IMG/VR virus record: IMGVR_UViG_3300031977_001460
Location: 1 to 40,229 of that record
Origin: a virus
Length of the DNA stretch: 40,229 nucleotides
Direction: 5' to 3' (one strand)
This document shows positions 2,713 through 35,097 of this stretch, in pieces. Numbering within the stretch: the stretch's first letter is position 1; each line of letters opens with the position of its first letter. Made by a program: the position numbers and the translations under genes. The notes below the pieces were generated by a model. That model was not told where the DNA came from. It was given only the letters and a program-made list of their open reading frames with translations, and ran no database searches.

Positions 2713-5535
2713 TCACTCATAGAAAAAGTTGACTTGGCAGGCATTCGCACCAGGGGCACTGTTACCCTCGCTGTTTGTCGAACACGCCGCCGTGATTGCT
2801 GTTGTAAATTCAACGCCGCATGGGGGAACAGGTAACGCAAAACCGCTACCGTTCGTGTCTCCCGCTGTTGGTACGAAGAACTGCATAACTGGTGTTGTTG
2901 TGCCGACTGTCACGCTCCCCTGTGCCGTGTTGAACAATTGCAAATACAATGGGCTCGCTGTGGTATTCATTACATACCCGCCATAGAACGTCCCTGCACC
3001 TGCTTTGACTGCTACTGCTGTTTCATCGAGGTCGTTGTCGTAAAAATAAGAACAACCACCCGATGCTTGTGCAGTGATCTGCGAGACAGTCACATCGCCG
3101 ATGGTGTTCGACCCGGTTGGCAATGCACCCACAACGTCCACTTGTAATTCTGAGCCACTGACCGCGTTGTCTAATAGCTCGACGGCTGTTTGGATTGCGG
3201 AGAGTGCTGTATTAGCTGTTGACTGATTTGCAGCAGTCGCGGCTCCACTCGGCAATGCGGAAGACACAATGTCAACTTGCAACTCAGAACCGCTGACAGT
3301 GTTATCCAGCAACTCAACGGCTGTCTGGATTGCAGACAATGCGGAGTTTGCAGTGCTTTGATTCGCGGCAGTCGCGGCCCCACTCGGTAACGCGGAAGAC
3401 ACAACATCAACTTGCATTTCAGTCCCGCTCACCGCTCCTGCAACTGTGGCAAGATTGGTGTCCATCGCGGCAGTGTCTGCGAGAATGCCAGTTGTCGCGG
3501 TATCAATTGAGTCTAGCACTGCATTGTCTACCGCAGACAATTCGGCTGTCACAACGTCTGAATTTGTGAGTGCTCTGATATCCAGAGACGTAGCATTAAC
3601 TGTCACTGTCGCGGCTGACACGTCGAGAGCCGAACCCTCCTGAATGAACAATGCGCCAGAAGCGTTGACTTGCAACGGCGTATAGTCTCCATCTGTGTCA
3701 CAGAGCGAAGCCAGCGTGTCGTTCCTGACAGCCAAAGACATTGTTCCCGTGTCGCCCGTGGTGTGTGCTGCGTCTTCCGAATATTGTGTCCCACCACCAG
3801 CCGCACCCGTCGTTACTCGCAATTCACCATCAGCGTTAATTGACAACGGAACATAGTCACCATCTACACCAAAGTCAGACTGCGTATCCTGACGCACCGC
3901 CAAAGCCATCACCCCCGCATCTCCGGTCTGGTGTGCCGCATCTTCTGCGAGAACGATATTGTCGATCAACTGCAATGCAGTGAGTGCTGCACCGTCCTCT
4001 TGAACGGCAAAAGTACCTGCATTGGTTACTGCGTGCGAACCAACCGTAAGAGTACCGCTGACCGCTGCGTTAATCGCCGCCAGATCACCCGCCGCAGTAT
4101 CCGGCAAGGTCGCGAGCGTCACATCGTTATTCGCTCCGAGGTCAACTGTGAGCGTTCCTTCAACCGCAGTCTGAATAGCAGAGAGTGCTGTATTGGCTGT
4201 TGACTGATTTGCTGCGGTTGCTGCCCCGGTTGGAAGTGCAGAAGTAATCACATCGACCTGCATTTCTGAACCGCTGATCGCATTGTCGATTGTCTCTACG
4301 GCTGTCTTGATCGCGGAAAGGTTTACATCATCAGTCGAGATACTGACCCGCTGAGTCTCTGCACCCGCGTTGCCCGCACCAACATCCAGTCCGTCTGAGA
4401 TCTCCTGAATAGATGTCTTCAGGTTGCCGCCTGTCGTTGCCCCAATATTGACATAACCACTTCCGTTGTTAGCCACCAGGATCGACCGGCCCAACACGGC
4501 AATGTCTGAGTCGTCAATCGTCGCGTCGATTCTCTCAGACTTCGGACCAAGAGACGTTGTGTGAAACAGAACTTGCATTCGGAAGTGGGTTTGCGCGCCA
4601 GCACCGTTCGTGTAGACAACCCTGAAATATTTTGCCTCGGGAATCATCGTGTGGGTAAACGGTGCAGACGCCGCACTAAACGTGTGTGTTTCCTGCTTGT
4701 CCCAGTTCGTCCCATCAGTTGAGTATTCAAAGGAAATACCATTCGCCGCTGAGTCCACATCCGAGTCAATGAACAGGACGATAGAACCATAATTTGTCAG
4801 GTCGTCGGCTGTTCCTGTGAAGGTTGCGCCGCCTGACAATGGGGTGGATGTCGAATTGTTAGAAGACACTGTTCCCGCTTGTAGCACAGTCAGCGTGCCG
4901 CTAACGGCTGAGTTGATCGCCGCTAAATCTCCCGCCGCAGTGTCAGGCAGAGTGGCGAGAGTCACATCGTTGTTTGCCCCTAAGTCAACAGTCAGCGTAC
5001 CCTCAACGGCTGTCTGTATCGCGGAAAGTGCCGTATTTGCTGTGCTTTGGTTCGCTGCTGTCGCAGCCCCAGACGGCAACGGGAGACTTAAAGCCGACAC
5101 CGGCTGAGTTACGCCAGAACCATCGACCGTGAGAGTTCCCGCTACGCTTGCTGCAATCGCATCTAACACCGCATTGTCTGTCGCTGAGAGATTCGCGGTA
5201 ACGGTCCCACCTACCGTCAATGTTCCCTCGACCGCCGCCTGAATCGCCGATAATGCCGTGTTCCCTGTGGTTTGTAGTGCCGATGTGGCAGCGCCGGACG
5301 GCAACCCCACTGTGAGCGTCCCAGCAACAGACGCCGCAATCGCGTCCAGAACAGCGTTATCAGTGTCGCTGAGTGCAACCGGGAAGGGGTTTGACGACGT
5401 GCTACCAACAATGTTGGCTGTGTTGTCTGGCCCAAACGCAATCTTGGAGTACGGCCAATTCACCGAATTGATGGTGTCCACTGAGAAAATGGCACCGTCG
5501 TTGGTTGAAGCTGATGCTTGTATCTGGTCTGCCAT
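2713..5535 (-). CDS. Repetitive tail-fibre-like protein
   Basis: 940 aa, low in Cys and aromatics, very rich in Ala, Thr, Ser, Val and Asp. Most of it consists of degenerate repeats. One module reads GAATAANQSTANTALSAIQT followed by AVEGTLTV or LLDNxVSGSELQVD; another reads LSATDNAVLDAIAASVAGTLTV; a third reads LATLPDTAAGDLAAIN. Residues of about 215-330 form a non-repeat beta domain, and the last 120 residues (after SGGCSYFYDND) another, which may be the distal tip. Repeats of this kind are seen in long fibres and structural proteins of aquatic phages. The ATG overlaps the LamG gene stop as TAATG. Host binding is the likely role, unproven. Confidence 0.85.
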   Translation of the reverse strand: MADQIQASASTNDGAIFSVDTINSVNWPYSKIAFGPDNTANIVGSTSSNPFPVALSDTDNAVLDAIAASVAGTLTVGLPSGAATSALQTTGNTALSAIQAAVEGTLTVGGTVTANLSATDNAVLDAIAASVAGTLTVDGSGVTQPVSALSLPLPSGAATAANQSTANTALSAIQTAVEGTLTVDLGANNDVTLATLPDTAAGDLAAINSAVSGTLTVLQAGTVSSNNSTSTPLSGGATFTGTADDLTNYGSIVLFIDSDVDSAANGISFEYSTDGTNWDKQETHTFSAASAPFTHTMIPEAKYFRVVYTNGAGAQTHFRMQVLFHTTSLGPKSERIDATIDDSDIAVLGRSILVANNGSGYVNIGATTGGNLKTSIQEISDGLDVGAGNAGAETQRVSISTDDVNLSAIKTAVETIDNAISGSEMQVDVITSALPTGAATAANQSTANTALSAIQTAVEGTLTVDLGANNDVTLATLPDTAAGDLAAINAAVSGTLTVGSHAVTNAGTFAVQEDGAALTALQLIDNIVLAEDAAHQTGDAGVMALAVRQDTQSDFGVDGDYVPLSINADGELRVTTGAAGGGTQYSEDAAHTTGDTGTMSLAVRNDTLASLCDTDGDYTPLQVNASGALFIQEGSALDVSAATVTVNATSLDIRALTNSDVVTAELSAVDNAVLDSIDTATTGILADTAAMDTNLATVAGAVSGTEMQVDVVSSALPSGAATAANQSTANSALSAIQTAVELLDNTVSGSELQVDIVSSALPSGAATAANQSTANTALSAIQTAVELLDNAVSGSELQVDVVGALPTGSNTIGDVTVSQITAQASGGCSYFYDNDLDETAVAVKAGAGTFYGGYVMNTTASPLYLQLFNTAQGSVTVGTTTPVMQFFVPTAGDTNGSGFALPVPPCGVEFTTAITAACSTNSEGNSAPGANACQVNFFYE

Positions 5536-15209: not shown

Positions 15210-15655
15210 AACTTCCACTCCCCGTCCAACCTGAACTTGATAGTCCCGTTCACTTTCCGCACGTCCAGAACCGCGTACGGGTTCGGCCAATCGCAGAAAT
15301 CAACCATCGACATATCAACTGGGGCAGACACTTCAATCGATGTCTCACCAGCCGCTTCCATTAGCTTGTACGCCATCACGATTGCTGGCATAACCTGCGA
15401 AAGAAACGAGTAACGATACGCACTCGCCATGTCTTTCGGTGTCACACTGTCAAACACATCGCGGACGTTGGTTGATCGCTGCGGCAACTCTTCATCACCA
15501 GGCACTCGTGTAATCCGCGTGCTGAAGTCCTCGTTCTTGGCTATCGTTTCAATCGCTTCTTCCAGCGTGATGTCACACTCACGCATAAACACACCGATTG
15601 ACGGCATGGCGTCGTGTGGTTGTGAGCGTAGGTATTCTTCGGGGTCTTGTTTCAT
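15206..15655 (-). CDS. Hypothetical protein
   Basis: 149 aa, acidic and helical at the N-terminus (MRECDITLEEAIETIAKNED), with a beta C-terminus (VLDVRKVNGTIKFRLDGEWK). The ATG is clear and overlaps the helicase stop as ATGA. No motif recognised; position between the DEAD helicase and HNH suggests a replication or recombination accessory. Confidence 0.65.
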   Translation of the reverse strand: MKQDPEEYLRSQPHDAMPSIGVFMRECDITLEEAIETIAKNEDFSTRITRVPGDEELPQRSTNVRDVFDSVTPKDMASAYRYSFLSQVMPAIVMAYKLMEAAGETSIEVSAPVDMSMVDFCDWPNPYAVLDVRKVNGTIKFRLDGEWKL

Positions 15656-17184
15656 CGCAGCCTCCCCCTATCTATATCCTTGACTTTGCGACTCCAATCG
15701 ATGCGGTTCAGCGGGGTGAACTTCCACTCGGGACGTGGTTCTACCCAGTTGTTCTCATACATAAAGTTTCCGCGTGCCTGACCCAATGTCTGGCCGCTGT
15801 TTTTTGCTCGCATCACACATTGAATGTACTTTTCCTCCAAAGCACTAGACTTAGGTGCGTACCGTTTTTTCTTGTAGACATGACCCACCTTCATCTTGAG
15901 AGTCCCGCCCTTCTGAATCACCGGCCTCACGCTTCGCTTGGCCTGTTCCCCACACTGCCAGCAAGAGATACCACCGCTGCGAATGGCCTGGCACTTCGGA
16001 CAGCAGATAGGCTCAGGAACACCATCTTCACCCGAGTTATGGTCTCGATGCTGTTCCATGCGAACGTGCGTCATCACAGCAGGGTTGAGTTTCCAATATG
16101 TCTGCCAGTCCCGATCCTCGTTCGGCGAGCCGTGGCGATACCAGTTACCCCCGTGATCCTGCACAATCACATGGTCCAGACTCTCGTGATTTCTCAACAC
16201 ACGCCCAACAGTCTGAATGTAGGACAGCACGGATCCAATCGGGCAGGCGAGAATCAGGTGGTACAACTCGGGAATATCAACCGCTTCTCGATAGACGAAC
16301 CGATTGCACAGCACCTTAATCGTGCCGTCCTTCAACGCCGACTCGACCATTGCCCTGTTCTCAGGTGTGGACTTCATGCGTTCGCCGCGATACCAGATCT
16401 CTTGCCCATCAACGGACGCCGCAGGGATTCCAGCTTTATCGAACTGTTCAGCCAAAAACACAGCCCCTTTAACATCCGGGGCCATGACAAGGCATGGTTT
16501 CTGGTCTGGATTCAGACGCAGATAATGTTCAATAACATTGCCCACGACCTGCTGAGAGATAATGTTTTTCAGTTGCCCGCTGGTAAAGTCCTCGCCAATC
16601 TTAACCTTCTTGACGTGAGACATATCAATCTCGGACGGTGCGTAGACATGGCAGGGAAGGTGGGCGCCGGTACGTCTCAACTCGCTATTCGTACCAGCGA
16701 CCACCAGTTCCATGCCCGGTCGATAGATTCCCAACGGTGTCGCCGTCCAGTGCAGTGTTATCGCCCCCGCCTCACGGTGCGGCTTGAGAACTGCATCGGC
16801 CTGTGGATTAGCTTGTAGGTGGGCTTCATCCAACTGCACGATATGGAACTCTGGTTGCAAATATTCCGGTCGTTCAGACCTCGAAGCCTCTGTCTGAATC
16901 GAGCCAATCTGAATGCGTTGCTTCCAATATGATTCCGTCTCGTACCCAGCCGCACGGACACCAACAGTCTTCCCAAATCTCTGAAGTGCATCTCGAATGT
17001 TCTCCGTATGTGTTCGTCGGACACAGTAGAATCCCACGCCCAAATGAGTGAATTCGCACGCCCTCGCCATCATCAGAGACTTACCACCACCTGTAGGGGA
17101 AGTGACGGCAATATCCTTGACGCCCCGATTGATGAGCGATTCAATCTCAGAGAGTCCGCGTTGTTGGTGCGGCCAAAGGTTCAT
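15652..17184 (-). CDS. DEAD/DEAH-type SF2 helicase with zinc motif
   Basis: 510 aa from the ATG that overlaps the methylase stop by 1 nt. Walker A is TSPTGGGKS (residues 28-36); motif II is QLDEAH; motif III is HWTATPLG; motif VI is YIQTVGRVLRNH. A zinc-ribbon-like group CCPKCQAIRSGGISCWQCG follows the helicase core. It should unwind or remodel DNA during replication or recombination. Together with the SNF2-like helicase and DNA methylase it forms a three-gene coupled cassette. Confidence 0.88.
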   Translation of the reverse strand: MNLWPHQQRGLSEIESLINRGVKDIAVTSPTGGGKSLMMARACEFTHLGVGFYCVRRTHTENIRDALQRFGKTVGVRAAGYETESYWKQRIQIGSIQTEASRSERPEYLQPEFHIVQLDEAHLQANPQADAVLKPHREAGAITLHWTATPLGIYRPGMELVVAGTNSELRRTGAHLPCHVYAPSEIDMSHVKKVKIGEDFTSGQLKNIISQQVVGNVIEHYLRLNPDQKPCLVMAPDVKGAVFLAEQFDKAGIPAASVDGQEIWYRGERMKSTPENRAMVESALKDGTIKVLCNRFVYREAVDIPELYHLILACPIGSVLSYIQTVGRVLRNHESLDHVIVQDHGGNWYRHGSPNEDRDWQTYWKLNPAVMTHVRMEQHRDHNSGEDGVPEPICCPKCQAIRSGGISCWQCGEQAKRSVRPVIQKGGTLKMKVGHVYKKKRYAPKSSALEEKYIQCVMRAKNSGQTLGQARGNFMYENNWVEPRPEWKFTPLNRIDWSRKVKDIDRGRLR

Positions 17185-18140
17185 CAAAATAACCTCCCTG
17201 CCGCCATGTCCTCCTCTGCTTTTCGAAGGTTTGCACATGCCGAATTAAAGTAACTCTCCTTCAGTTCTATACCGACAAACTTACGATCTAGCCGGATCGA
17301 CTGATCGCCTTCGCTTCCTATTCCAGCAAACGGACTGAGTACGATGTCTCCGGGATTGCTCCACAACTGCAAAGCCCGATGGATCACATCCAACTGTAGT
17401 GGGCAGATATGCCGCTCATCCTTGTCGTCTCTCGCGGATCGAAATTGCAGCGTGTTGCTCGGGTTGATGTCCATCCAGACTGGCGATGCGTAACGCTGCC
17501 AGATGTCGATGCTGAGGTTGCCTTCATGCCTAAATGTGGACTGATCACCCGCAAAATGATCGAACTCACCAGCGACCGGCTCGGGATTGTCTCCCGGCTT
17601 TCTAAGCGTAACCAGATAGTCTGGTATGCCCTGTCTCGACATTGCCGAGTCTTTTACGACTTGCTTGTGCAACAATCCGAGAGCTTTGGTTCGCTGCATC
17701 GCTGTGACAGGATCCTTCCAGATGCAAACTTCGGAATGATAGATGAACCCCGACTCCTGAAACCGTCGAATGATGTCCCCTCGGAAATCCTGAATCCCGA
17801 TGTAGCCGTGCCATTGCTTAGTTGTCGGTAAGTTCATGCAGTGAACCGACACATTCCGACCAGGCATCAGCACGCGGTACAACTCATCAATCAGGTATCC
17901 GAAGTGCTCCCAGAATTCTCCGTAGTCCGCCGAATTCCCCATGTCTCTCTCTGAATTAGAGTAGACATACAGACTCGCGAACGGAGGCGAGAAGACACTG
18001 AAACCGACCGAATCGTCGGGAATGCCCTTGATGACCTCCACGCAATCACCGCGATACATCGACCACAAATCAGAGTGATCCTGTGCAATGCATGATGCAT
18101 CGGTTACGACGGTTGTCTTTTCAGTTAGCCCACTAGCCAT
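17184..18140 (-). CDS. Site-specific DNA methyltransferase (beta class)
   Basis: 318 aa. Motif IV SPPF is at residues 51-54 and the SAM-binding motif I, LSPFAGIGSEG, is near residue 270, so the catalytic block precedes the SAM block as in beta-class enzymes. SPPF rather than DPPY points to N4-cytosine methylation, but N6-adenine cannot be excluded. ATG with GGAG 8 nt upstream and a 16-nt overlap with the helicase gene. No matching restriction enzyme is seen, so it likely protects phage DNA from host restriction. Confidence 0.88.
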   Translation of the reverse strand: MASGLTEKTTVVTDASCIAQDHSDLWSMYRGDCVEVIKGIPDDSVGFSVFSPPFASLYVYSNSERDMGNSADYGEFWEHFGYLIDELYRVLMPGRNVSVHCMNLPTTKQWHGYIGIQDFRGDIIRRFQESGFIYHSEVCIWKDPVTAMQRTKALGLLHKQVVKDSAMSRQGIPDYLVTLRKPGDNPEPVAGEFDHFAGDQSTFRHEGNLSIDIWQRYASPVWMDINPSNTLQFRSARDDKDERHICPLQLDVIHRALQLWSNPGDIVLSPFAGIGSEGDQSIRLDRKFVGIELKESYFNSACANLRKAEEDMAAGRLF

Positions 18141-19513
18141 GATGGAATCTCCATTCTTTCAGTTGCGTGATAAGTTTCGATCTGCGATTTCACTCCTCGC
18201 ACGTTTTCAGTGCTGAGTTCTTTCATGTGCTGCACAAGTTCATCAAACATTCTGGAAGCGTCTTCCTCTTTACGTTTCACGTTGGCGATCACAGCCCCCT
18301 CTAGGTCAGACAATATTGCGTGTACATTGACGGTCTGTGTCTGGCCAAATCTCCAGAAACGACGAATCATCTGATACCACATCTCGTAGCTGTCAGTCGG
18401 CAGAATCGCCGTGTTCGGGCAGTGTTGCCAGTTCAAACCAAACCCGCCAATTTTCGGCTTCGTGACAAGAACGCGAATCTCGCCATTCGTAAAAGCGTTG
18501 AGCCGCTCTTCCTTTTCGTCGATCTTATGCCGACCTGCGACCTCGACAGCGTCCGGGATCAACTTCTCCAGTCGTTCCCCTTCTTCATTGTAGTTGCACC
18601 AGATAACCCACGGCTCATCTGAGTTATTAGCAAGCTCCGCTGCTTTGGCAATTCTTTCGTCGATAGTAGTTTTTCTTGCGTCTCTACGCTCTGCGAGCGA
18701 TGATGCTTCGACGGCAAACAGTCTTCCCTCCTGCGGATTGCTCGTCGTGATTACATGCTCGTGGTATTTTAGTGGAGGCAGATCATACCCTGAATCGTCG
18801 TAGCCAAGATCGGCAGGTGAGCGAAGCATCACACACCAAGAGGCCAGCCACTTCCAGAATTCCGATTCTGCGTGCCCCTTCAATCTCCACTTCGCTGTAT
18901 CCCCTCCATCGTGAACGAAGAATGTTGCCAGCATCTCTTCGCGACTGAGGACCTGGCAGAACTGCGACTGATTTCCCAACTCCATAAAGTCATTCGGAGC
19001 CGGTGTTGCTGTCCAAGACATCGGATATTTAACACGATTCCATTCTGTCAAAAAAGCAGTCCTAATTTTACCAGCAACCGACTTTAGAATTGACCCTTCA
19101 TCAAGCATCACGCATACAAACTCAGACGGATCAAACTTGCTCATCCTCTCGTAGTTCGTGATGTTGATTCCTGGCTTCACGTCCTTCTGTGACTTGCAGA
19201 CAGTGACATCGACATCGATCTGAAACTTCTCAGCTTCTCGCTCAAATTGCTGTGCCACTGCCAATGGAGCAAAGATCAATGCTTTCTTGTTCGTGAACAT
19301 CACGATTTGACGGCATATTTCCAACTGCTGAAATGACTTACCCAATCCGCAATCCTCAAAACCTCCGAACCTCCCACGCTTGCACGCATACTCAACAATG
19401 TCTGCCTGAAACGGCATAAGCATTTTATTAAGTGATTCCCGCTTTACGGTGAATCCCGAGTCTGGCATCCTCTGAAACTTACCGTCTATGAACTTCTGAT
19501 AATCTGCAATCAT
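18125..19513 (-). CDS. SNF2-like helicase / translocase
   Basis: 462 aa from the ATG overlapping the prior TGA. Walker A is CGLGKS (55-60), preceded by LMPFQADIVEYAC; motif II is LDEGS in place of DEAH; motif III is SWTATPAPND; the C-terminal lobe has RVLVTKPKIGGFGLNWQHC and motif VI QMIRRFWRFGQTQTVNVH. These are SNF2-family marks. Phages often carry this gene next to a DNA methylase, as here. The two may act together on DNA, or the helicase may serve replication. Confidence 0.87.
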   Translation of the reverse strand: MIADYQKFIDGKFQRMPDSGFTVKRESLNKMLMPFQADIVEYACKRGRFGGFEDCGLGKSFQQLEICRQIVMFTNKKALIFAPLAVAQQFEREAEKFQIDVDVTVCKSQKDVKPGINITNYERMSKFDPSEFVCVMLDEGSILKSVAGKIRTAFLTEWNRVKYPMSWTATPAPNDFMELGNQSQFCQVLSREEMLATFFVHDGGDTAKWRLKGHAESEFWKWLASWCVMLRSPADLGYDDSGYDLPPLKYHEHVITTSNPQEGRLFAVEASSLAERRDARKTTIDERIAKAAELANNSDEPWVIWCNYNEEGERLEKLIPDAVEVAGRHKIDEKEERLNAFTNGEIRVLVTKPKIGGFGLNWQHCPNTAILPTDSYEMWYQMIRRFWRFGQTQTVNVHAILSDLEGAVIANVKRKEEDASRMFDELVQHMKELSTENVRGVKSQIETYHATERMEIPSWLVG

Positions 19514-20181
19514 TCCAACCCCCTCACCAGTTCGGCGTACTTCTCGGAAATACACCCAGCAGCATCCAGCAACTCACCATGCTCTGGCTTGTCAGACCAC
19601 TTGTAATGAGCCGCACATTCGTCGTACTTGCGAATCGCCTGTCCAAACAGCTTGTCAAACACCGCGAGGTCAGGACCAACCGGGACAGTCCTCGTCGGCT
19701 TATCCACTTTCGGCGGCTTGTACTCCCCACCATTCGCCGCCTTACGCTTCTGAACCGTCTCCTTAACGTCTTTCGTGGTAGGGACTTCCCGCCCTTCCGA
19801 CTCGGCTTTCTCCTGCGATTCGGCCCATGCGTCGGCCTGTTCTTCGTCGGGAAGAGACGAAAGCTGGTGAGACTGGGCAACGGTCGGTTCGGTTTGTAGA
19901 TTCGAATCTACACTTTTTAGATTCGTCAGAACCCGAATCTTTTCGAGTTGCTGATAAGCCCACGTTGCGGACTTTCCATACTCAGAATTGACAAACTCTG
20001 CGAAAGTCTCGTAGTCCTGTCTGTAGAGCCTTTGGGACTTAATCACCCCCAGAGACTCGCCAATCTCTTCGGTCGCATCACTCACGGTTTGCAGGTTGAT
20101 CCTGACTGAGTCGCAGTGAAACTTGTAATCTTTGAACTCCGCTGGTGTGAGCGGTTCAATGTTTTTGATTTCGGTACTCAT
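19510..20181 (-). CDS. DNA-binding-like replication accessory protein
   Basis: 223 aa. The segment LYRQDYETFAEFVNSEYGKS, then ATWAYQQLEKIRVLTNL, matches a helical module common in phage proteins that look like ParB or replication regulators. A long charged linker rich in Glu, Lys and Pro (REVPTTKDVKETVQKRK) follows, then a C-terminal helical part. ATGA overlap with the ERF gene. I cannot name the family, but the location suggests a role with the ERF and RecE-like proteins. Confidence 0.65.
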   Translation of the reverse strand: MSTEIKNIEPLTPAEFKDYKFHCDSVRINLQTVSDATEEIGESLGVIKSQRLYRQDYETFAEFVNSEYGKSATWAYQQLEKIRVLTNLKSVDSNLQTEPTVAQSHQLSSLPDEEQADAWAESQEKAESEGREVPTTKDVKETVQKRKAANGGEYKPPKVDKPTRTVPVGPDLAVFDKLFGQAIRKYDECAAHYKWSDKPEHGELLDAAGCISEKYAELVRGLE

Positions 20182-27363: not shown

Positions 27364-28283
27364 GTGAACGGTAATACGCTGAATGCTTTAGTATCTTTGG
27401 TGCTGTATGTTTTTGTGACAATCTCACTCGGCAAGAGATTGGTTTTCAGAGGCTTCACATTTCCGTCCGGGTCCACCGTCTCATCTCTGATGGCTTTCCC
27501 ATTGGAATCCAGAAACACAGGCTCGTCAACCGGCTCTCCCGCAGAAGTCAGAATCGGCCTGAGTTCCGTGATGGTGGTCGGTGAAGCGGTGACGTAAATG
27601 GTCGTCTCAACAATCTCACGCAATCCGACGTTCAGAAGTTTTTGATCCCAACCATCCTGACGAAACAGCATCTGAAACGAGATTTCGTAAAACACCACGC
27701 CGTTCTCTGTCTGCTGGTCGCTGATGTTAATAGCGTCCATCTTGAGCGTCCCAGCGGCCAAAACCGCCCCACCAATCGTCACGGCATCAGAATTGACAGC
27801 ATTCTGGTAGGTTGTCACCCAAGTAGGCACAAACGCCACATTCTTGGAAACGCTGATTTGCCACAGCGCCCGGTCTTCTTCTACGCCAATCAGCAAGTCG
27901 CCAGCGTCATTCACAATCGGGTTGTCGTCCTTGTCGAACAGGATTGGAACACGCTCATTCTGAGTACCCCATGTAATGCGGGCAGGTCGAAGCGTGGGGT
28001 CTTCCGTCTCCTGCTCTGTCTCTCGCTCCGTCGTGTAGTTGACGGTCAGCAGCGAGACGACTTTTCCGGTATCAATCGATCTATCAAGATTCCTTGATTC
28101 CACATAGGCCAACCCGTCATTCGGATGTATTGACCACATTTGAGGAACTTGGCTGTCTGAGAGAATGGATCGGCTTGTGTCTGATGCGGCATGTTCAACA
28201 AGGAACGTGCGAACGTACTTATAGACGAACTGGCGGTCGTCTGATGTCGTCTCAGATTGAAGGGTGACGTTCGTAACGGCCAT
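27360..28283 (-). CDS. Tail-associated hypothetical protein
   Basis: 307 aa, directly after the tape measure with a TAATG junction. Beta-rich throughout, with VFYEISFQMLFRQDGWDQKL, LNVGLREIVETTIYVTAS and a segment (FLDSNGKAIRDETVDPDGN) that reads as a short capping domain. It fills the place of the distal-tail or Dit-like protein, but no classical Dit signature is visible. Confidence 0.68.
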   Translation of the reverse strand: MAVTNVTLQSETTSDDRQFVYKYVRTFLVEHAASDTSRSILSDSQVPQMWSIHPNDGLAYVESRNLDRSIDTGKVVSLLTVNYTTERETEQETEDPTLRPARITWGTQNERVPILFDKDDNPIVNDAGDLLIGVEEDRALWQISVSKNVAFVPTWVTTYQNAVNSDAVTIGGAVLAAGTLKMDAINISDQQTENGVVFYEISFQMLFRQDGWDQKLLNVGLREIVETTIYVTASPTTITELRPILTSAGEPVDEPVFLDSNGKAIRDETVDPDGNVKPLKTNLLPSEIVTKTYSTKDTKAFSVLPFT

Positions 28284-29752
28284 TAGCTTGTCGCCCCCGC
28301 AACTGCAAAGGTATTGCCGCCCACTTTCTTTTCAATGCTCTTGAGCGTCTTGGCCATCATGCCGGTGTTCTTCGCAGTGGCCTCTTCTGGCTTCGCCTTG
28401 CCGCCCGACATTGCGGAAACAATCTTCTCAACGCCTTCGCGGGTGAATGCTCCGATAGCCTCGTTCGCCTGTGTTTTCCGTGCTTCATTCCCTTTCGATT
28501 CCTCTTCAGCTACTGAACCTGCACCGCCAAGCGTACTGGGATCCACGCTGCCAATATCGAGTGAATCGCCTACCGCGTCACCCAATCCAAGCTCTTTGGC
28601 GAGTGAGTCCTTGTATTTGTTCAACGCGGTCTTGTCGAGCGTAGGAGCCTTGAAATCTCGTAGCTCAAGAGACTCTTTAATGGAACTTTGGAACCCATCT
28701 GTGAGCGAAGTAAATTGCGGAAAGGCCACATCAGTGAATCCGCTGGAAACCGAATCCCACGCCGCCTTGAAAACGGCAATAATGTTTTTGCCGAGATTAT
28801 TCATCACCGTCAGTGCGAAGTTTCCGATATCTTTAAATATTTCACGCCAGTTCCGACCCACGAACCCGAGAACATCCGACATCACACCGCCGAACCACTC
28901 CAGTCGTGCCACCGTGATGATGAATGCGTTGCTGGCCGCTTCCGCAACAACATTCCACACCAACCCCAAATTCTGCGCCGAGAAGACCACAACTTTGATG
29001 CCCATGTTGATCATCTTCAGGGACTTGGTAGCCATCGGCAGGAACACGCTTCCAATGTTTGCAGCGGTATCGAGGAACGTCGCCTTCAACGCTTTCATCT
29101 GATTCGCAAACGAACCAGCCGATCGAATCGCGTCTCCCTGTGCGGCTGTCGTGCCTTCCATGATGATGTTGAGACGTGCCATGACCTTCTGCTGGTCGGT
29201 CAGGGTTTTAGGATCCCACCCCATCTGTAACGCTCGCTGCTTCACGGCGGCTTCCGACACAATCACGCCGTATTTCTTCATCACTTCGCCCGAGCCTGTC
29301 AACGCCGCTTGCAGGTCTCTCAGCGTGTCGTCGTCGCTCATATTGTTGAACGACGCCAAGTCGATAGCCAGCGCGGTAATCTGCTTAGACATCGTCTCAG
29401 CGGCCCCAGGTTCAAACCCGAGAGGAACAAACAAATCCTGAGAACCCGCCATGAAGCGGGCTATTTGCTCTTGAGAACGCCCAACCGTAGACGCGAAGTT
29501 GTCCCCCCACTCCTTCACACGGCCTGCATTTTCTCCGAAGACGACATTGAATTTATTCATTGTCTCTTCAAGGTCGGACGCAATCTTGATCGCGGGGACC
29601 AACGCCGCACCAACGGCCACACCAACACCAGTAACGGCTTTGGTTGCGAACCCTACGAAGCTGCCTAACTTCTTCTTCGCCTGCGAGATTCCACGCGAAA
29701 AACGCTTGGAATCCATGCCGAGACGTACAACTAAATCGCCTCCGAGTGCCAT
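28283..29752 (-). CDS. Tape measure protein
   Basis: 489 aa. Hallmarks: N-terminal helical domain with FSRGISQAKKKLGSFVGFAT, a hydrophobic run VTGVGVAVGAALVPAIKIAS, then EETMNKFNVVFGENAGRV (PhageMin-tail type), further hydrophobic spans (AASNAFIITVARLEWFGGVM) and a charged Ala/Glu tail. It measures tail length during assembly; at about 0.15 nm per residue it predicts a tail of only ~70 nm, short for a siphovirus. Starts 26 nt after the GT stop, and that gap is filled by a hairpin. Confidence 0.9.
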   Translation of the reverse strand: MALGGDLVVRLGMDSKRFSRGISQAKKKLGSFVGFATKAVTGVGVAVGAALVPAIKIASDLEETMNKFNVVFGENAGRVKEWGDNFASTVGRSQEQIARFMAGSQDLFVPLGFEPGAAETMSKQITALAIDLASFNNMSDDDTLRDLQAALTGSGEVMKKYGVIVSEAAVKQRALQMGWDPKTLTDQQKVMARLNIIMEGTTAAQGDAIRSAGSFANQMKALKATFLDTAANIGSVFLPMATKSLKMINMGIKVVVFSAQNLGLVWNVVAEAASNAFIITVARLEWFGGVMSDVLGFVGRNWREIFKDIGNFALTVMNNLGKNIIAVFKAAWDSVSSGFTDVAFPQFTSLTDGFQSSIKESLELRDFKAPTLDKTALNKYKDSLAKELGLGDAVGDSLDIGSVDPSTLGGAGSVAEEESKGNEARKTQANEAIGAFTREGVEKIVSAMSGGKAKPEEATAKNTGMMAKTLKSIEKKVGGNTFAVAGATS

Positions 29753-29761
29753 TGGTCGTTC

Positions 29762-29778
29762 CCACGCCCCCGCATGGT
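29762..29778 (-). promoter_or_regulatory. Hairpin before tape measure gene
   Basis: CCATGC and GCGTGG pair around GGGG (one G-T wobble). The 17-nt core ACCATGCGGGGGCGTGG begins right after the GT stop, ends 9 nt before the tape measure ATG, and is identical to the core ahead of the major capsid gene. Confidence 0.55.
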
Positions 29779-30338
29779 TCAGTCTTCAATGAGTGGCATG
29801 TGGTCGGTCAGCTTGCCTCCAGCAATTGCCCTAGCCACCGTCGCCGCATGATAATCACCTCTGATGACTCCAAAAGGCTGTATCTGATACAACGCAATCC
29901 ACTCCAAATACTGTCGTCTCGTAACCCTGTTCTGAAAGTTCTCATAATCAGGCTCACCAAACGCTAGGCTGATCATCATGAGGGTTCGTTTGTCTTGGTC
30001 GTCTCTGAGGCGTTCTACTTTTTTTCCATGTCCTCGTCGTCTGTCAGGCCAGACAGCCGAGCAGCTTCGTTGAAAATTCTCGATAAAACACCAGCAGGCC
30101 ACTCCTCCATGATCTCTGTCAGATGCGTCTCGTCGTACATCTGATTCCCGCTCTCATCGACGATTGACATTATTGCCAGCATTGCACGGTTCTCAATTAC
30201 TTTTTTGCGAATGACTCGCCCTTTAACGTCGTGATATCGCTCGTGCCAGGATTGCGCCTCACGCTCTGAGAGTTCCTTCAGACGGACATCCTGACCGTCT
30301 ACCTCAATCGTTATCGTCTTTCTCTGGAATTTCAGCAT
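29779..30338 (-). CDS. Tail assembly chaperone GT (frameshift product)
   Basis: A 186-aa fusion: the full G protein continues in the -1 frame after a slip at A-AAA-AAG, adding 79 residues starting VERLRDDQDKRTLMM. The T part (RRQYLEWIALYQIQPFGVIR, GDYHAATVARAIAGG) matches the phage tail assembly T-type domain. In siphoviruses a minority of ribosomes makes GT; the G:GT ratio is needed to recruit the tape measure and tube subunits. The T frame has no start codon suited to independent translation. Confidence 0.85.
30015..30338 (-). CDS. Tail assembly chaperone G
   Basis: 107 aa. Begins MLKFQRKTITIEVDGQDVRL, followed by KELSEREAQSWHERYHDVKG, the usual G-type beginning with a beta segment then helices. 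It ends LTDDEDMEKK directly after the slippery site. ATG with GGGGAG 4 nt upstream. The gene overlaps the previous gene by 35 nt. It should bind the tape measure during assembly and leave before maturation. Confidence 0.85.
   Translation of the reverse strand: MLKFQRKTITIEVDGQDVRLKELSEREAQSWHERYHDVKGRVIRKKVIENRAMLAIMSIVDESGNQMYDETHLTEIMEEWPAGVLSRIFNEAARLSGLTDDEDMEKK
30018..30024 (-). other. A-AAA-AAG -1 frameshift site
   Basis: In the G frame the last codons read GAA AAA AAG TAG, so the slippery heptamer A-AAA-AAG lies directly before the TAG. A -1 slip moves onto GTA GAA CGC and the T frame. This is the same heptamer used by dnaX. No clear downstream stem-loop was found. Confidence 0.85.
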
Positions 30339-33569: not shown

Positions 33570-34895
33570 TTAGGTGTCAGTGCTGATCACGACGAACGGA
33601 CTCAGCGTCTCGCTCGATTGCTCTGGTGTCAGAGGTGAACGCCACCATGAGCGACCATCACATCGTTCCCAGAACTTGAAGGTCTGCTCGTGGTTCAAGA
33701 ATCGAACGTGCATTGAACTGGCGTTTTGCAAGCCCTGATACGTTCCTTCGAGATACTGAGACCAATCAGCCAGAATCAGGTCGCCAGTGTTGGCGAGCGT
33801 GCTGGCGTATTCTGAGAACACAATCGGACGGCCAAGCAGCGTGTCAGGCTTGTCGGTTCCGTTGCCGGGGACAAAAAGCGGAACAGTGTCCGCAGGTGTC
33901 GATGCCGGGAGAGGAATGTGAACGCTCATCAGAGTCGTGAGAGTGTCATGGTTAGCAATCCAAATGGAAATGCCGTAGTTACACGCACGCTGACGCATAG
34001 CAAGAACATCTTGGTCAGTGATCGTGTCAGTGGTTTCGCGAGTCACGCTGATGGTCGCAGGGCAATTCAAGATGCCCTCAAACTCACCAACGCCAGTACC
34101 ACGAATCCGCTCTTTGATCTTCGCAGCGACGAACTGGTCACGGAAACCAGCCTGAATGATTGCAGCAAGTGAGATCGCTGAATCGCTCATGATTTCCTCA
34201 GTCGCGTAGGTCAAACCCATGAGGGTGTTGGCCTGCAACGTGACCGTCTCGAACTGCATCCGGCTCGATGTCGGAGATTGCGTTTCGTGACGACGAGCAA
34301 CAGTCAGACCACCCGAGACAGAACTGGTGTGATTCTTGTCGGTACGGGCAGGGATCTTGACGGTCGGGTTGGCCATCGGAACGTTTGTGACACGACTTCC
34401 AATCGGATCCATCTCAGGACCGACAGAATAAAGCTGCGCCAGGAACCCTTCGGGAACCAGATAGCCACCATAGGCGTCGTTGCTGCCCATATGCTCGTCA
34501 CTTCCCGCAGTTGCGAGGAAGTTCAGCTTTTGGGCACTGTCGCCTTCGAGACGCTTGCCTTGACCGGCGGCAATCACGTCCGCGAAGAAATCGCGTTCAT
34601 GTTTGTAGCCCAGTTTCGCGTCGTCTTGCCAAGCAGGTTTTAAGCTGATTGGCTCTTGCGCTTTCGGCTTGTTGGCCGGTTTCGGTCGTGGCGATGCAGC
34701 GGCGTCTTCTTTCAGTGACTCATTGAGTGCGATCTTCTTGTCGATTTTCGCAATCTCTTTTTGAATCTCGTCGGCCCGTGCCTGTGCTTCGTCGTCAAAG
34801 TCCTCTTCCAACGCCAGCAGTTCGTTCAGTTCGACGTTCAGTCCGTCCTTGTCTTCTGCCAACGCTGCCAAACGCTTATCAATTTCAGTAAGCAT
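33570..34895 (-). CDS. Major capsid protein, HK97 fold
   Basis: 441 aa. Residues 1-~105 are a charged coiled-coil delta domain (LAALAEDKDGLNVELNELLA, EIAKIDKKIALNESLKED) expected to be removed by the protease. Mature part: VPEGFLAQLYSVGPEMDPIG, TVTLQANTLMGLTYATEEIM with the usual E-loop to P-domain order, and LLGRPIVFSEYASTLANTGD as the typical closing motif followed by LADWSQY. All match phage_capsid of the HK97 family. The ATG has only a weak ribosome site and a hairpin leader; own promoter and terminator. Confidence 0.92.
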   Translation of the reverse strand: MLTEIDKRLAALAEDKDGLNVELNELLALEEDFDDEAQARADEIQKEIAKIDKKIALNESLKEDAAASPRPKPANKPKAQEPISLKPAWQDDAKLGYKHERDFFADVIAAGQGKRLEGDSAQKLNFLATAGSDEHMGSNDAYGGYLVPEGFLAQLYSVGPEMDPIGSRVTNVPMANPTVKIPARTDKNHTSSVSGGLTVARRHETQSPTSSRMQFETVTLQANTLMGLTYATEEIMSDSAISLAAIIQAGFRDQFVAAKIKERIRGTGVGEFEGILNCPATISVTRETTDTITDQDVLAMRQRACNYGISIWIANHDTLTTLMSVHIPLPASTPADTVPLFVPGNGTDKPDTLLGRPIVFSEYASTLANTGDLILADWSQYLEGTYQGLQNASSMHVRFLNHEQTFKFWERCDGRSWWRSPLTPEQSSETLSPFVVISTDT

Positions 34896-34898
34896 TGC

Positions 34899-34930
34899 GC
34901 TTCAATCCACGCCCCCGCATGGTGTGAAAC
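34899..34930 (-). promoter_or_regulatory. 32-nt hairpin resembling a type I-C CRISPR repeat
   Basis: On the minus strand an imperfect hairpin: GTTTCA pairs with TGAAGC, CCATGC with GCGTGG, GGGG forms the loop, and a 2x2 internal loop separates the stems. The 3' half GCGGGGGCGTGGATTGAA is the characteristic end of type I-C repeats. Compared from memory with the published Desulfovibrio vulgaris I-C repeat, it differs at 6 of 32 positions with no gap. Only one copy is present, and it ends 3 nt before the capsid ATG. Confidence 0.55.
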
Positions 34931-35069
34931 AAAAAAAGTCCGCAAGAATTACGCGAGAATGCAATAAAGTAATCTCGTGTGATTCCTGTGGCCTTATGAA
35001 GTACCGAGTGAATGCGATGAATCTTGTCTGATTGTTACTGTCCGCGTGGCGTGACAGCTTGTTCGGACA

Positions 35070-35097
35070 TTGTTACACACTTGCGTATAGGCGTCAA
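35070..35097 (-). promoter_or_regulatory. Predicted promoter of the major capsid gene
   Basis: TTGACG (35092-35097), 16-nt spacer, then TAACAA(T) (35070-35075) on the minus strand. It lies right after the HTH gene stop and about 170 nt before the capsid ATG, giving a long leader that also contains a T7 run at 34932-34938. Confidence 0.5.

Follow-up and report, generated by a model that had tools for sequence, protein, structure and literature searches.

The window, by which we mean the whole stretch of 40,229 nucleotides of viral DNA analysed here (positions 1 to 40,229 of IMG/VR record IMGVR_UViG_3300031977_001460), carries a major capsid gene and a tape-measure gene on its minus strand. Each of them is preceded by an exact copy of the same 17-nt core, and the capsid copy lies within an element that resembles a CRISPR repeat, with 3 nt separating its end from the capsid ATG (34895). 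The features are as follows.

33570-34895, minus strand: major capsid gene, HK97 fold (PF05065, E 3e-34).
28283-29752, minus strand: tape-measure gene, ATG at 29752 (phrog_31409, E 1e-8).
34899-34930, minus strand: CRISPR-repeat-like, RBS-proximal hairpin, GUUUCACACCAUGCGGGGGCGUGGAUUGAAGC when read from 34930 to 34899.
34907-34923, minus strand: capsid copy of the 17-nt core ACCATGCGGGGGCGTGG (exact direct repeat D5).
29762-29778, minus strand: second exact copy of the core (D5), in the tape-measure leader, without the CRISPR-like handle.
35069-35097, minus strand: sigma-70-like promoter TTGACG-17-AACAAT, a consensus match only, at the same spot in relatives, with weak statistics.
35037-35058, minus strand: bulged-A hairpin GCTGTC-A-CGC-cac-GCG-GACAGT, belonging to the capsid-leader motif and placed at the 5' end of the leader RNA.
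34990-35005, minus strand: conserved block GGTACTTCATAAGGCC, exact in three relative contigs, its 3' end being the foot of the terminator.
34931-34995, minus strand: intrinsic terminator, a long hairpin (34995-34935) with a T tract (34937-34931, seven T).

Read 5' to 3', the capsid leader consists of the promoter, the bulged-A hairpin, the conserved block, the intrinsic terminator, the RBS-proximal hairpin and the AUG, and we infer that transcription starts at the leader's promoter. The terminator fold has a predicted energy of -20.7 kcal/mol (z -4.6), and a terminator-like hairpin is also found in the capsid leaders of the relatives. Between the protease gene and the capsid promoter (35300-34994, minus strand) lies a small ORF that looks helix-turn-helix-like by eye; the window ORFs as listed for this interval had no match in Pfam or PHROGs. 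In contig L028 the DNA upstream of the leader is different and, by eye, HNH endonuclease-like, pointing to a variable insertion site. Elsewhere in the window, the ORFs at 30015-30338 (tail assembly chaperone, phrog_344) and 29779-30102 overlap on the minus strand (30338-29779), an arrangement suggestive of the programmed frameshift that usually precedes the tape measure. Matches to helicase and DNA methyltransferase families (phrog_16) fall on separate neighbouring ORFs at 15652-19555 (minus strand), as in a split helicase-methyltransferase, and a 940-aa ORF with diverged direct repeats of ~80-158 nt (3178-5306) probably encodes a repetitive tail-fibre-like protein.

The earlier note had aligned the element with a type I-C repeat over 32 nt with six mismatches, and the same value was obtained on recomparison with GTCGCTCCCCACGCGGGGGCGTGGATTGAAAC (26/32 identical). 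Against six I-C repeats fetched for comparison, a different set from the SRUFinder repeats, the best identity was 27/32 and the exact run of 22 nt scored 44.1 bits. The 18-mer GCGGGGGCGTGGATTGAA is found in 41 IMG/VR DNA stretches, nearly all of them recognisable full I-C repeats, whereas a control 18-mer (GCGGGGGCGTGGATTGAA with the handle reversed) has no occurrence in IMG/VR DNA; the I-C likeness is therefore real. Type I-C solitary repeats are common in phages, and the published SRU criteria (SRUFinder) are at least 90% identity over most of the repeat and a bit score of at least 41.1 (PMC10651486). Over its full length the element is 81-84% identical, below the first of these values, its 100% match spanning 22 of 32 nt, and its local match lies above the second. 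It is intergenic and solitary, the handle having one copy in the whole record. Solitary I-C repeats in IMG/VR were often seen shortly before virion genes (L068, L043, L059, L036 and others), these being capsid-like (phrog_771), scaffold (phrog_194), tail (phrog_394) and, by eye, portal-like genes, and candidates for the type I-C RNA anti-CRISPR (Racr) may occur preferentially in late-gene leaders.

The RNA of the element is predicted to fold as GUUUCA(CA)CCAUGC(GGGG)GCGUGG(AU)UGAAGC, with 12 bp interrupted by a single 2x2 internal loop and capped by a GGGG loop (-15 kcal/mol, z -4.3), in agreement with the 12-bp imperfect hairpin that had been described before the start of this HK97-type capsid gene. 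In true I-C repeats CGCYCCC pairs with GGGGGCG and the handle is single-stranded. The element can form only 4/7 pairs of this canonical stem, in a register that differs from that of a real repeat, and its handle is buried in the stem, with an unpaired probability of 0.19 as against a median of 0.92 and a minimum of 0.45 in 30 viral I-C repeats. An I-C fold with a single-stranded handle is thus not predicted for the element, and the proposal of the earlier note that it mimics a repeat as an RNA anti-CRISPR is not borne out.

The proposal also fails on conservation, for which the earlier note had named a refuting outcome, a lack of conservation in related phages that otherwise keep the capsid leader. 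The close leader is carried by only three related contigs of two lineages (L080/L081 and L082), whose capsids are 81-82% identical to that of the window; they have in common with the window the promoter-like site, GGTACTTCATAAGGCC, the terminator and the GCGGGGGCG hairpin, and they read GCGGGAAGA... at the position of GCGTGGATTGAA, without the handle. Beyond the duplicated hairpin, the CRISPR likeness comes down to ATTGAA alone. The UGAA within it pairs with UUCA, and by eye L082 can form the same pairing, though its predicted best fold differs. In a few sequences (L026, L023 and L028) a GGGG-loop hairpin of 5-6 bp stands at the same place before the capsid gene, as TCCTGC(GGGG)GCGGGA or CCTGC(GGGG)GCGGG, an A and its partner U being gained or lost together, and on these few sequences the structure of the RBS hairpin is conserved in the relatives. 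No DNA relative of the window was detected among 50,697 phage records, and a prophage search for the host returned capsid relatives of 39-52% identity in Gemmata, Chloroflexi and other assemblies, with no single host indicated.

GGGG-loop hairpins of at least 5 bp number only three in the 40-kb window, each of them on the coding strand with an ATG 6-11 nt downstream, the distance being 9 nt for the tape-measure gene. The third, before 28283, is situated in coding sequence and is unpaired in L026, and is probably a coding coincidence. In L026 (87.6% identical DNA over 7.9 kb), an ordinary GGGAGGA replaces the hairpin in the tape-measure leader. The idea that a 16-mer core is a widespread phage element was discarded, its other matches in IMG/VR being I-C repeats or looking like coding or chance occurrences. 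With the hairpin part also seen apart from the handle, the CRISPR likeness loses weight, and it looks accidental.

Shine-Dalgarno (SD) sites are present in 17 of the 31 genes checked and absent from the capsid, the tape-measure and the third gene. Before the capsid gene only two sequences are SD-like: the GGGGG run in the loop, with the potential to pair with CCUCC of 16S rRNA, and GUGGA in the 3' arm. Both are part of the hairpin and stand 11-21 nt upstream of the AUG, and this stable hairpin (-15 kcal/mol, 3 nt before the AUG) overlaps the ribosome site. Consequently, ribosome loading should depend on the folding of the hairpin or on a binder. An ATG within the hairpin also opens an 11-codon ORF (MRGRGLKRNAY; 34920-34885, minus strand), which runs across the capsid start in a frame other than that of the capsid gene.

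The bulged-A hairpin at the other end of the leader follows a plan (P1, bulged A, CGC, loop of 3-4 nt, GCG, P1') that is present in 24 of 60 capsid leaders, comprising the window and relatives from viral and genome contigs, as against 0.87 in shuffled leaders (maximum 3) and none in their reverse complements. Its density is 1.26 per kb in leaders and 0.056 elsewhere in the same loci (22x), and the core has a strand bias of 49:4. Among copies selected by the core only, with nothing required of P1 except its first pair, base pairing of P1 was more frequent than in every one of 2000 partner swaps. A set of 28 copies, picked by eye from 46 core-selected ones, gave a covariation signal higher than each of 500 shuffles and each slid control, the partner-swap test being the less biased of the two. 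A covariance model of the motif (R1), built without the window, has its best match in the 40 kb at the window copy (35060-35035, E 0.001); in whole viral records the capsid leader holds its strong matches, and weak ones outside it are few. A strong match (25 bits) in L124 at 2788-2814 is located downstream of the capsid gene, at a possible second regulated gene. A sequence scan of all IMG/VR for two tandem cores returned 5 contigs, all of them capsid-leader contigs already known from the protein search, and an R1 scan of 201 genomes of one phylum gave the capsid contig and four single matches resembling chance. At gathering score, no Rfam family (CRISPR-repeat or leader families) matched in the window or in 20 relatives. 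The bulged-A hairpin is conserved, covarying and nearly confined to capsid leaders. The RBS-proximal hairpin was also considered as a second bulged-A copy, TCACACCATGCGG resembling TCACGCCACGCGG, and this was rejected, there being no R1 match on that strand; since R1 does not match 34930-34899, the two hairpins are different elements.

In six leaders (L089, L096, L103, L105, L108, L123) the terminator takes its 5' arm from the 3' half of the bulged-A hairpin, with an overlap helix of 11-16 bp for which 0/200 shuffles were as good. In five (L092, L103, L108, L123, L130) the 5' half of the gene-nearest copy pairs with the SD region (p <=0.016), as for example CTCCACG with CGTGGAG. The window, L080 and L082 have no overlap between the bulged-A hairpin and the terminator.

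Considering these results together, the element is probably a translation-control hairpin that ends a structured 5' leader of the capsid gene, rather than a mimic of a CRISPR repeat. What can be read directly from the sequence is the hairpin, its position, its duplication, the conservation of the leader, and the motif with its covariation. The hairpin would cover the ribosome site of a capsid gene without a normal SD and so may set capsid output; in the RNA, the terminator and then the RBS hairpin would follow the bulged-A hairpin at the 5' end, and in relatives the bulged-A hairpin may compete with the terminator or with the stem that masks the RBS. The other suggestion of the earlier note, a translational operator that happens to look like a repeat, fits well, with the ribosome site covered, the core recurring before the tape-measure gene and the GGGG-loop hairpin kept in relatives. 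Counting against such a gate are the tape-measure leader of L026, which is without a GGGG hairpin, and the third site, which is not conserved as a hairpin.

Amongst the other explanations, it is unlikely that the hairpin descends from a true I-C solitary repeat that the leader acquired once and that degenerated before being put to new use at the RBS. Repeats such as GTCGCTCCCCATGCGGGGGCGTGGATTGAAAC (L063) do contain the 22-nt run as their 3' two thirds; however, the 5' arm GTTTCA resembles that of L082, which is without the handle, and since the UGAA-UUCA pairing is also possible there, only a few handle letters are left free, while the order of events cannot be rooted with three leaders. Still less probable is a palindrome that works as DNA, either a dispersed operator or a mobile palindrome bound by a phage regulator. 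An exact copy at a second gene, missing from the orthologous site of L026, would suit it, but every GGGG-loop hairpin precedes an AUG by a few nt on the coding strand, and the stem holds a U-G pair (CCAUGC with GCGUGG) of RNA type that is kept by relatives. We give even less credence to an incidental hairpin without function: relatives are few and structure close to a start codon can be neutral, yet the z of -4.3, the retention in relatives with A and U gained or lost as a pair, and the duplication before a second virion gene speak against it. Least credible of all is a Racr transcribed in the capsid leader to titrate Cas5c/Cas7, for although the 22-nt, 44.1-bit match, the solitary intergenic position, the frequency of I-C solitary repeats in phages (PMC10651486) and the location of some directly before virion genes are in its favour, the full repeat is matched at 81-84% with 4/7 of the stem and a buried handle, relatives with the same leader and the duplicated core copy are without the handle, and a terminator lies between promoter and element.

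Returning to translation control, formation of the bulged-A hairpin in the relatives would relieve both the terminator and the masking of the SD, so that the binding of a factor, of phage or host, to this hairpin should activate the capsid gene on two levels. The logic in the window may differ, because its bulged-A hairpin does not overlap the terminator and its RBS hairpin does not match R1; there, the RBS hairpin itself may be the translational gate. We tentatively propose, with considerable doubt, an undescribed RNA switch shared by the capsid leaders of a broad range of uncultured tailed phages, in which 1-3 bulged-A hairpins would be the target of a phage factor, perhaps a virion protein, whose binding would prevent the terminator and expose the ribosome site, and capsid would be made only with the factor, the window being a member with the GGGG-loop RBS hairpin as the masking part.

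Phage translational operators and RBS hairpins include the coat operators of MS2 and PP7 and the RBS hairpins of T4, and the MS2/PP7 plan consists of a stem, a 5' bulged A, a short stem and a small loop. The element is like these operators in that a virion gene has its ribosome site covered by a hairpin, and the upstream bulged-A hairpin has the same plan as in MS2/PP7; unlike them, it belongs to a dsDNA tailed phage with another sequence, the RBS hairpin has no bulge and the binder is only hypothetical. As in LicT/SacY-type antiterminator (RAT) leaders, a hairpin resembling a protein site overlaps the 5' arm of the terminator in the relatives; the hairpin is another one, however, the gene concerned is that of the capsid, and a further copy overlaps the SD-masking stem. 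GafZ of the Caulobacter gene transfer agent brings about processive antitermination of virion genes via promoter and RNA polymerase (PMC11150451); the likeness is that terminators within or ahead of virion genes would be bypassed when the time comes, whereas here the candidate signal is a local RNA hairpin. Type I-C Racr/SRU elements (PMC10651486) are similarly repeat-like, solitary, intergenic and in phages, with 22 nt exact here, but the element differs from them in its fold, its paired handle, its lack of conservation in relatives and its 81-84% identity over full length. The capsid-leader motif is a variant of known cis-regulatory RNA leaders.

A tempting but probably false anti-CRISPR call is thereby removed, and a match to the handle alone is seen to be insufficient, so that the fold and the relatives should be checked as well. 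In the literature searched, no description of RNA-level control of capsid synthesis in dsDNA phages was found. The bulged-A hairpin is a compact, testable RNA motif, absent from Rfam, and it points to control of the capsid at the RNA level in dsDNA phages.
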